Below are positions 2,509-5,815 of a stretch of 64,000 nt of DNA, piece after piece. The number at the start of each line of letters is the position of its first letter. The first letter of the stretch is position 1. The translations under genes were made by a program, and so were the position numbers. The notes below the pieces were generated by a model. The model saw only the letters and a program-made list of their open reading frames with translations. It was not told the origin of the DNA and made no database searches. The DNA lies in assembly GCF_026020075.1 (NCBI RefSeq), contig NZ_CP102772.1, positions 2,852,001 through 2,916,000 of the forward strand. The letters are read 5' to 3'. This DNA is from Bosea sp. NBC_00550. GTDB lineage: Bacteria > Pseudomonadota > Alphaproteobacteria > Rhizobiales > Beijerinckiaceae.

Positions 2509-3039
2509 TCAATGCGTCAGGCCGAGCCGCGCTTGCAGGCTCGCCAGCTGGTCCTGGACGGGGTTGCGAGCTTCGTTGCGGGTCTCGGCTCCCGACATCT
2601 GGCTTTCGAGATGGCGCAGGCGCGCCTGCAGCCGCTGCGAATGCGCCATCAGATCGCGCAGGCGTTCCGGCAGTTGCGCGACGATATGCTCGGCCGGCGC
2701 GATCATCGGATCGCCGATCTTGACCTTGTTGTGCTCGGTCCTGGCCTGCTCGGCCGTCAGTTCGCCCTCGGCCACGGCACGTTGCACCAGGAGCCAGGAG
2801 GCGATCTGCATCAGCCGGGTGGTCAGGCGCATGCTCTCGGTAGCGTAGGTCAGCGCGACCTCGCGCGGCAGCGCCGCCGCTTCCTTGCGGCCGTCCCCGT
2901 CGAGATAGGCGGCCGTCTGCTCCACCAGCCCCATGCCCTCGCGGAACAGCAGCATGAAGGCGTCGGATCGCACGAAGCGACGCGCGAAGGAAAGGGCGCC
3001 CTCTTTCGTCTGCGGATCGAGCAGCTGGGCATCGTTCAT
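2509..3039 (-). CDS. rcdA: RcdA family protein, regulator of CtrA degradation (DUF1465)
   Basis: In Caulobacter, RcdA is an adaptor that works with CpdR and PopA to help ClpXP degrade the master regulator CtrA and other substrates. The 176-residue product shows the family core MGLVEQTAAYLDGDGR, then ALTYATESMRLTTRLMQIASWLL, then QLPERLRDLMAHSQRL, all predicted helical. The ATG before NDAQLLD is preceded by GGGAGA. TTAA motifs at 3151-3162 and 3371-3386 upstream fit CtrA control, which is known for Caulobacter rcdA. Divergent function in this genus cannot be excluded, but family membership is clear. Confidence 0.88.
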   Translation of the reverse strand: MNDAQLLDPQTKEGALSFARRFVRSDAFMLLFREGMGLVEQTAAYLDGDGRKEAAALPREVALTYATESMRLTTRLMQIASWLLVQRAVAEGELTAEQARTEHNKVKIGDPMIAPAEHIVAQLPERLRDLMAHSQRLQARLRHLESQMSGAETRNEARNPVQDQLASLQARLGLTH

Positions 3040-3150
3040 GCGGTGTCTCCCATCGGCACAAGCCCGTGCGCCTTTGAAACGCGTCACGGATCATGCCGCC
3101 GATGTCGCAAGGATAGCGCCGATCACGTTTCCCGACGCCGGTAAGATGTC

Positions 3151-3162
3151 GTTAAGGTTAAC
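3151..3162 (-). promoter_or_regulatory. TTAA-rich possible CtrA half-sites upstream of rcdA
   Basis: On the - strand the segment reads GTTAACCTTAAC, two TTAAC repeats about 115 bases before the rcdA start. CtrA half-sites are TTAACCAT-like, so the fit is partial. TTAA is rare in this GC-rich DNA. Confidence 0.3.
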
Positions 3163-3255
3163 GCGGCTAAACAGCTCTGGCGAGATACGACCGTCAGCGC
3201 CCGGACACGGGAATAAACGCGCTTATGGGCACGGTGCGCGAGAGACCCCAAAGAC

Positions 3256-3281
3256 AAAAAAAGAGCCGCCAAAGGCGGCTC
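3256..3281 (-). terminator. intrinsic terminator of the candidate sRNA / DUF1192 transcript
   Basis: The stem GAGCCGCC/GGCGGCTC has a 3-base loop and is followed on the - strand by seven T. There is no T-run in the + direction, so it acts on the - strand only. Confidence 0.9.
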
Positions 3282-3347
3282 GAAGGTCAACAGGGAGGCG
3301 TCAAACAGAGTGGGCAGGAGCCACTCGACATCCAGACAAACTGGATG
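3256..3347 (-). ncRNA. candidate trans-acting small RNA with exposed CUCC motifs
   Basis: On the - strand this roughly 92-base stretch folds into three consecutive hairpins. The first has a perfect 7-bp stem CATCCAG/CTGGATG (3329-3347). The second is GAGTGG/CCACTC with loop CTCCTGC (3308-3326). The third is a GC-rich 8-bp terminator stem followed by seven T. The second loop and the linker CCTCCC are anti-Shine-Dalgarno-like. Three stem-loops with unpaired CUCC are also known in AbcR/alpha-r15 small RNAs of Rhizobiales, but I cannot assign the family. A promoter-like box lies just upstream. It could instead be a 3' UTR-derived RNA of the DUF1192 gene. Confidence 0.55.
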
Positions 3348-3352
3348 ATGCG

Positions 3353-3386
3353 ATTCATACTTTGGAATCTTTAACGCACCCTTAAC
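3353..3386 (-). promoter_or_regulatory. CtrA-type box and -10 for the candidate sRNA
   Basis: TTAA, seven bases, then TTAAC (3371-3386) matches the full CtrA consensus TTAA-N7-TTAA. On the - strand, TATGAAT (3353-3359) could serve as -10. With a start near 3347 the box spans about -24 to -39, the usual place for CtrA-activated promoters. The match is direct; CtrA binding is inferred. Confidence 0.5.
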
Positions 3387-3409
3387 GGGCGTGCCTTTTT
3401 GACCCTTGT

Positions 3410-3610
3410 TCAGGCCAGCTTTCGGAAAAACGCGTCCGCCGCGGAGCGCGACGCATCCTTTTTCGCGCGCGCCTCGGCCAGGCGTTCGATCTCGGCCTTC
3501 AGCACCGAGATGCGCTCATCGATCTCGGCGAGCGAGAGCATCGACAGATCCTGCCCGATCTCATGCACGCTCTTCGGCTTGGGGCGATCATCCTCCGGGA
3601 ATATCGACAT
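3410..3610 (-). CDS. DUF1192 family small protein
   Basis: This 66-residue protein has no assigned biochemical role. It begins MSIFPEDDRPKPKSVHEIGQ, the typical opening of DUF1192, followed by a short coiled coil (about residues 22-48, LSLAEIDERISVLKAEIERL) and a tail ending AADAFFRKLA. An upstream in-frame ATG would add seven non-conserved residues, so I use the ATG before SIFPEDD. The family is common in Hyphomicrobiales, often beside the same quinone oxidoreductase as here, which lies divergently. No regulatory partner is evident. Confidence 0.85.
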   Translation of the reverse strand: MSIFPEDDRPKPKSVHEIGQDLSMLSLAEIDERISVLKAEIERLAEARAKKDASRSAADAFFRKLA

Positions 3611-3704
3611 GGCGGCCTCGCATCTGCTCAAACTGCGCGCGGCAGGCTAGCCAACTCACGGCCGCAGTCACGCTGCGCCGCACCATGACGAAGGACGACA
3701 GGCC

Positions 3705-5086: not shown

Positions 5087-5815
5087 GTGTCACAAACCCC
5101 GCTGATGCCCAAGGCCACCGCGGTCTGGCTGGTCGAGAACACCTCGCTGACCTTCGAGCAGATCGCCGAGTTCTGCAAACTGCACCCGCTCGAGGTGCGC
5201 GGCATCGCCGATGGCGAAGTTGCGGCGGGCATCAAGGGCCTCGACCCGATCACCTCCGGCCAGCTCACCCGCGAGGAGCTGGAGCGCGCCGCCAAGAACC
5301 CGAGCCATCATCTGCGTCTCGCCGAGCGCAAGGTGAAGGTGCCGGAGATCAAGCGCACCAAGGGCCCGCGCTATACCCCGGTCTCGAAGCGCCAGGATCG
5401 CCCGAACGCCATCCTCTGGCTGCTGCGCAACCATCCCGAGCTCAAGGATGCCCAGATCATCCGCCTGATCGGCACGACCAAGTCGACGATCGCGCAGATC
5501 CGCGACCGCACGCACTGGAACGCCCAGCAGCTCACCCCGATCGACCCGGTCAGCCTCGGCCTGTGCTCGCAGATCGACCTGGATTTCGAGGTCGGCCGCG
5601 CCGCCAAGGATCGCCCCGCCGCGCTGGTGGAAGCCGGCTCGACCCTGCTCCCCGCGGAGGAGACGACCGCTCGCGAGCCCAAGCCTTCCGAGAGCCAGCC
5701 CTTCGCCGACATGAGCCGGCCGAAGCGCGAGGAGGAAGCCGCCATCGACGTCGATTCCGTCTTCGCCAAGCTGAAGCAGCTCAAGCGCCCGGCCGACGAG
5801 GACGACGAGGGCTGA
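5087..5815 (+). CDS. trcR: cell cycle transcriptional regulator TrcR (DUF1013)
   Basis: TrcR is a conserved alphaproteobacterial DNA-binding protein reported to act in the cell-cycle transcription network. The 242-residue product opens MSQTPLMPKATAVWLVENTSLTFEQIAEFC and carries two helix-turn-helix-like segments, LTFEQIAEFCKLHPLEVRGIADG (about 18-40) and HPELKDAQIIRLIGTTKSTIAQI (about 119-141). The acidic tail ends PADEDDEG. The GTG start is supported by CAGGAGAC seven bases upstream. It is monocistronic and followed by a family B repeat. Confidence 0.9.
   Translation: MSQTPLMPKATAVWLVENTSLTFEQIAEFCKLHPLEVRGIADGEVAAGIKGLDPITSGQLTREELERAAKNPSHHLRLAERKVKVPEIKRTKGPRYTPVSKRQDRPNAILWLLRNHPELKDAQIIRLIGTTKSTIAQIRDRTHWNAQQLTPIDPVSLGLCSQIDLDFEVGRAAKDRPAALVEAGSTLLPAEETTAREPKPSESQPFADMSRPKREEEAAIDVDSVFAKLKQLKRPADEDDEG

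Follow-up and report, generated by a model that had tools for sequence, protein, structure and literature searches.

A segment on the minus strand beside rcdA in Bosea sp. NBC_00550 is, by its match to an Rfam model, a BjrC1505 small RNA (sRNA) gene, so far unannotated, of a family that is catalogued in Alphaproteobacteria. It lies in a window of 64,000 nt, by which we mean the whole stretch of DNA that was analyzed. By comparison with relatives, the RNA is a separate, structured one that ends in a terminator, carries a conserved CCUCCC core, and has a promoter region of its own, in which a CtrA-type box lies over the -35. We infer that CtrA would control the sRNA and that the RNA would block ribosome sites. 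Taken as a whole, the reading of a BjrC1505 gene with a CtrA-activated promoter and a CCUCCC core that blocks ribosome sites seems to us moderately probable.

Assignment of the rcdA-side RNA to the BjrC1505 family

We scanned the window with Rfam and found one match over its cut-off, RF02356 (BjrC1505), which covers positions 3256-3392 of the minus strand at full model length with 95 bits against a cut-off (GA) of 50. Therefore, the segment beside rcdA is read as a member of a known sRNA family. It matches BjrC1505 in sequence, hairpins, core, terminator, and length, with no defining difference, and the Bosea sp. NBC_00550 genome holds one copy. Positions 1 to about 45 of the model seem to cover promoter DNA 5' of the RNA, and the 5' stem of the model contains nonstandard pairs in the Bosea sequence. 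BjrC1505 is reported to come from Bradyrhizobium, in work by Madhugiri in 2012; the literature that we searched contained no description of its function. An earlier note, made from the letters alone, had proposed a candidate sRNA on the minus strand within 3256..3386, and the Rfam score, the covariation, and the conserved promoter box bear this out. The features of the locus are as follows.

2509..3039, minus strand: rcdA (DUF1465, which we take to be the RcdA family), downstream; Pfam PF07323, 183.2 bits
3256..3347, minus strand: predicted BjrC1505-family sRNA transcript of about 92 nt, from the RF02356 match and covariation; the start is a prediction
3347-3341 with 3335-3329, minus strand: hairpin 1, 7 bp, CATCCAG/CTGGATG; both-sided changes at 6 of 6 counted pairs
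3326-3308, minus strand: hairpin 2, 6 bp, GAGTGG-CTCCTGC-CCACTC; both-sided changes at 6 of 6 pairs, loop not universal
3289..3305, minus strand: conserved core UUUGACGCCUCCCUGUU with CCUCCC (CCTCCC linker at 3298-3293), candidate seed
3281-3263 (stem) and 3262-3256 (T7), minus strand: terminator from the terminator scan, 8 bp with a 3-nt loop, GAGCCGCC-TTT-GGCGGCTC plus T7
3353..3359, minus strand: TATGAAT, -10-like, 11 nt after the box; the 174 unique promoters show a TTATNANT block of columns
3371..3385, no strand assigned: TTAA-N7-TTAA box (CtrA consensus), spanning about -38 to -24 relative to the predicted start and at the same place in relatives
3410..3631, minus strand: DUF1192 gene, upstream; Pfam PF06698, 82.6 bits

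At E<=0.001, RF02356 had matches in 82 of the 149 genomes sampled from the same taxonomic family; in the order sample they occurred in 245 of 297 genomes, and in the class sample in 30 of 289. RF02356 matched none of the 14 control genomes searched, Caulobacter vibrioides among them, and BjrC1505 therefore lies outside the best-known CtrA circuit, which counts against the CtrA reading. Among the named loci, the highest RcdA scores belong to Bosea records (L137 and L140). We also used R1, our own model of the transcript alone, without the promoter, trained on 75 sequences. R1 matched 214 of 249 order genomes and 78 of 337 class genomes, many of the class matches being weak; the family, order, and class samples overlap, and the training sequences were partly drawn from them. 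Several genomes (G066, G165, G172, G196, G243, G434, and G641) gave more than one match to the sRNA models, as paralogues or assembly artifacts.

Structure and core of the RNA among relatives

The earlier note had described three perfect hairpins, a CCTCCC linker, and a run of seven T, and direct reading confirmed all of them, position for position. The predicted folding energy of the 95-nt segment is -36.5 kcal/mol (z -4.96), and none of 200 shuffles was equally stable. For the structure alignment we took 75 nonredundant relatives, the Bosea sequence included, from 187 usable loci at a 90% similarity cut. Among these relatives 93.1% of the cells in stems were paired, rising to 98.3% in the terminator stem. 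The conservation of the hairpins, for which the earlier note had proposed a search for compensatory changes, is seen in both-sided changes at 18 of the 20 stem pairs. The covariation score of this alignment was 0.254, compared with 0.137 when shuffled (none of 500 shuffles reached 0.254); slid versions scored no higher than 0.088. RNAalifold, run on the same alignment, predicted the terminator and, besides it, just one weak hairpin, which surrounds CCUCCC. The conserved core may form such a hairpin; however, we do not claim it because no both-sided change in the 75 relatives supports the pairing. The window RNA contains a 14-codon ATG frame. We rejected a conserved small peptide because closed frames of at least 8 codons occurred in just 26 of the 75 relatives.

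The 17-mer of the core is present in 65 of the 75 relatives, CCTCCC in 73, and the linker GACGCCUCCCUGUU or GACGCCTCCCTGTT in 68, figures that are inflated since many of these relatives were found through the 17-mer itself. Likewise, conservation of the core among the 118 core-found loci (matches listed) is by selection because the 17-mer was the query. Among the 79 loci (L001-L079) found by Rfam searches or as repeats thereof, 74 have at most one core mismatch. The earlier note had singled out the CTCCTGC loop of hairpin 2 as an anti-Shine-Dalgarno element. The loop is present here; however, it does not appear to be the key element, because of the 75 relatives only 40, limited by lineage, carry a CUCC-type motif in that hairpin, and members from Mesorhizobium, Phyllobacterium, and Devosia (L093, L102, and L099) have other loops. 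By this comparison, 68 against 40, the linker rather than the loop is the better candidate seed.

A CtrA-type box in the promoter region

Both promoter elements that the earlier note had named, a TTAA-N7-TTAAC box and a TATGAAT -10, are present on direct reading. With its final C, the box reads TTAACGCACCCTTAAC on the plus strand (3371-3386). This site is the one TTAA-N7-TTAA in the 64-kb window, where shuffles gave none; the 6.27-Mb genome has 27 sites, compared with 12 for the pattern read backwards. A simple sigma-70 scan found no classical promoter at the locus, and the sRNA start near 3347 is a predicted one. GANTC sites, presumably CcrM-type, flank or overlap the -10 at window positions 3365-3369 and 3352-3356 and are not family-wide.

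We then asked whether the box is kept in relatives. Loci found by RF02356 are not blind to the promoter, as the model spans about 45 positions 5' of the predicted start. In test (a) we therefore used loci with the exact 17-nt core in named genomes, at least 118 in number. R1, which is blind to the promoter, matches 113 of the 118 core-found loci (matches listed). The loci without an R1 match (L110, L128, L148, L176, and L177) were dropped as chance core matches; they had first been set aside for having no box and no rcdA, three also lacking a terminator, and the box-blind R1 check came later. Leaving out L085, L113, and L171, with less than 95 nt upstream, gave 110 core-found loci; L123 is counted among these promoters and excluded from the alignment and from the rcdA-gap and rcdA-adjacency counts. 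A box with at most one mismatch lies at -95 to -65 of the core, about 80 nt upstream, in 108 of the 110 core-found loci (matches listed), and in 50 it is exact; many of the loci are near relatives, so that box counts here and below are not independent events. Dinucleotide shuffles of the 110 loci gave a mean of 6.4 boxes and a maximum of 14 (exact, 0.6 and 3). Seven 31-nt windows further upstream held 0, 0, 1, 0, 2, 3, and 8 boxes among the 118 listed loci, the last window overlapping the box region. The box is absent from the core-found loci L083 and L131 and from the sRNA locus L063.

In test (b), on class-sample loci found by R1, the box was present in 23 of 27 (7 exact), compared with 2 of 108 control windows; many of the 27 genomes had supplied earlier loci or training sequences. 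Of the boxless four, L393, L394, and L397 probably had the core misplaced by our script, and L383 is without a box. Among the 10 genomes new to the analysis (L377, L385, L392, and L397-L403), 9 had the box. The logo of the 174 unique promoters reads TT(A/T)AC-N6-TTAAGCTTTC followed by TTATNANT, with TTTA in the first half-site in about a third. The commonest spacing from box to -10 was 11 nt, found at 96 of 187 loci.

TTAA-N7-TTAA is given as the CtrA consensus in two papers (PMC3616915, PMC12403871). One of them reports it for Methylosinus sporium, again as a promoter motif of CtrA type (PMC12403871); the other reports a predicted CtrA motif upstream of rcdA in Sinorhizobium meliloti, which concerns rcdA and not the BjrC1505 RNA (PMC3616915). 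A conserved TTAA-N7-TTAA, the sequence mark of the CtrA regulon, is thus what we find at the BjrC1505 promoter, and its fixed place suggests that the cell cycle controls BjrC1505. We examined 15 of the 27 genomic boxes, including that of the sRNA, taking as neighbors the longest frames near each box; 10 neighbor proteins were tested and 9 had a Pfam match. Among the 14 other boxes, 5 adjoin motility or receptor genes (flagellin, two rod-protein loci, an MCP, and a HAMP-domain receptor), and others adjoin ddl, a lytic transglycosylase, a MipA protein, and a sugar transferase. These neighbors fit the CtrA regulon, which is circumstantial evidence.

Neighboring genes and apparent autonomy of the sRNA unit

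The position beside rcdA, which the earlier note had stressed, holds here and, on the same strand, in 156 of the 168 loci whose downstream sequence reaches 900 nt; it is not universal. A MetY-type gene (by eye) follows instead of rcdA in L064-L066 and L068, and other genes follow in L009, L021, L076, L077, L079, L109, and L135. In L136, a Bradyrhizobium MAG, the sRNA and its box (about 1480-1700) are inverted between DUF1192 and rcdA, through an inversion or an assembly error. The gap between sRNA and rcdA ranges from 66 to 740 nt in relatives (median, about 172). This gap, the equivalent of window positions 3040-3255, has a CtrA-type box of its own in 71 of 172 cases, 31 of them exact, while shuffled gaps gave a mean of 5.6 and a maximum of 10 (exact, 0.3 and 2). 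On the other side, 71 of 103 named loci have DUF1192 upstream in the same orientation, and 55 of 86 have a quinone-oxidoreductase-like gene farther upstream; both counts come from single-sequence searches that miss diverged copies. A member of the TrcR family of transcriptional cell-cycle regulators lies 1.7 kb beyond the sRNA promoter (window 5087-5815, plus strand; PF06242, 218.3 bits), and among the 66 named loci whose upstream sequence exceeds 3.5 kb, 24 have a TrcR match.

The sRNA unit looks self-contained, neither a DUF1192 3' untranslated region (UTR) nor an rcdA leader, because it occurs beside other genes and once inverted with its box, and a separate box is frequent in the stretch between it and rcdA. 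The earlier note had offered as its alternative that the hairpins are the 3' UTR of the DUF1192 gene; in this view they would only form the end of its mRNA, terminator included, and would lack a promoter of their own. DUF1192, on the same strand, does end 24 nt short of the box, its upstream position is common among the named loci, and its mRNA may well also end at the sRNA terminator. However, the box and -10 block precede the RNA in 108 of 110 loci (matches listed), the distance from DUF1192 to the RNA varies, and RNA and box are inverted together in L136, with the possible assembly error there, and we disfavor this explanation as extremely improbable. The frequency of rcdA downstream on the same strand would also agree with a leader, with CtrA switching on transcription at the box and the terminator holding back read-through into rcdA. 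We consider this very unlikely, given the loci where other genes follow, the inversion in L136, the spread of gap lengths, and the many gaps with a box of their own.

Proposed mechanism and search for targets

In the mechanism that we propose for BjrC1505, phosphorylated CtrA would bind the TTAA-N7-TTAA box and, from its position over the -35, would activate the gene at a particular stage of the cell cycle. Through its CCUCCC core the RNA would then pair with the purine-rich ribosome-binding sites of several mRNAs and block their translation, and the targets may differ between lineages.

We searched for such targets with start-codon-linked seeds of 9 to 11 nt across genomes, a design that leaves room for weaker or otherwise placed pairing. 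The pattern CAGGGAGGCN{1,10}ATG was run on 13 genomes of the same genus, the Bosea sp. NBC_00550 genome included. For 6 of these genomes 72 sites were listed; we examined 70 and omitted 2 that overlapped another site. Among the matches listed, a short-chain dehydrogenase and a thiG-like gene recurred in 3 of 6 genomes each, and thioesterase-like, DUF2794-like, and dioxygenase-like genes in 2 of 6 each (all names by eye). We rejected these recurring sites as targets and read them as shared ribosome sites of close relatives. Across 91 genomes, ACAGGGAGGCGN{1,9}ATG matched in 35, and we examined one site in each of 30. In this order-wide scan no gene occurred in more than 2 of the 30 loci (L303/L308 and perhaps L312/L314), leaving aside hits that by eye resemble the sRNA's own antisense, such as L307, L315, L316, and L321. 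The best match in the Bosea genome, 12 nt long, is at the short-chain dehydrogenase. Its close orthologue is present in 21 of 25 same-genus genomes, 6 of these 21 have the 12-mer, and none of 8 more distant genomes has it. We also searched 71 genomes for complements to 16 nt of the core with at most 2 mismatches. Among the matches listed, the sRNA itself is the only one with 0 to 1 mismatch in the Bosea genome; three further complements have 2 mismatches, one of them the dehydrogenase site. Thus, the same-genus and order-wide scans with 9- to 11-nt start-linked seeds and the dehydrogenase follow-up found no conserved mRNA target. Either the set of targets changes from lineage to lineage, or the core has another role, for example in binding Hfq.

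The latter reading, in which the partners of the conserved core are not ribosome sites but a protein, for example Hfq, or some other RNA, draws on the outcome of the seed scans and on the CCUCCC-like linkers in the MmgR and SorX models, which gave subthreshold matches. However, CCUCCC is a plain anti-Shine-Dalgarno sequence. The near-perfect complement to the core is the sRNA itself, and the 2-mismatch complements include the dehydrogenase site (both among the matches listed); we regard this reading as rather unlikely. A different doubt concerns the box. On the sRNA strand the family box is TT(A/T)AC-N6-TTAAG, and the canonical 3' C of TTAAC therefore lies on the opposite strand, here and often. 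CtrA could repress the sRNA instead. With the RNA otherwise as described, this reversed asymmetry and the TTTA variants would suit a box that serves CtrA repression or another TTAA-binding regulator. A box over the -35 fits activation, however, and several genomic boxes adjoin flagellar and chemotaxis genes. Repression or another regulator is in our judgment unlikely, though worth keeping in mind, and activation by CtrA is the reading that we prefer.

More broadly, we propose, tentatively and aware that it may somewhat more easily fail than hold, that in Hyphomicrobiales, and in part of the other Alphaproteobacteria, BjrC1505 serves the CtrA regulon as an old shared posttranscriptional arm, its nearly invariant CCUCCC core silencing lineage-specific sets of mRNAs. 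If this is true, CtrA gains a repressive output beyond its own promoters. The CtrA-type box kept at a fixed place would tie BjrC1505 to the cell-cycle circuit, and a direct test is possible. The RNA family is already known; our literature searches returned no statement of the link to CtrA, and the founding 2012 paper and all supplements lay outside them, so it may be in print.

Comparison with other sRNAs

The earlier note had also likened the RNA to the AbcR-type sRNAs. This kinship was not borne out: Rfam, which we assume holds an AbcR/alpha-r15 model, gave no such match at the gathering cut-off in the window, nor at E<=5 in 3100-3700. What remains of the earlier reading is the independent sRNA gene and the CtrA-type box, without the CTCCTGC loop as key element and without AbcR.

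According to PMC4414408, EcpR1 of S. meliloti is, like BjrC1505, a conserved Rhizobiales sRNA, one tied to cell-cycle control by base pairing. We rejected identity with EcpR1, since its loop UCCGCCGCAUCU and its divK-pleD or rpmG location are both absent here. CcnA of Caulobacter is described, in PMC8959179, as a cell-cycle noncoding RNA whose C-rich loop acts on ribosome sites and whose transcription is expected after CtrA accumulates. By that description, it is unlike BjrC1505 in its gene at the replication origin, its CCCC loop, and its ctrA and gcrA mRNA targets.

The segment resembles MmgR/suhB (RF00519) in having a CUCCCU linker before a G+C-rich terminator; however, we rejected this identity at 25.1 bits against a cut-off of 41. 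True MmgR/suhB copies are found elsewhere in the Bosea genome, two in number, with 70.5 and 66.2 bits. These copies, L328 (G000:C1:1178356-1178430, minus strand) and L329 (G000:C1:3021380-3021456, plus strand), have a similar CCUCCCUAGACUU linker before the terminator.
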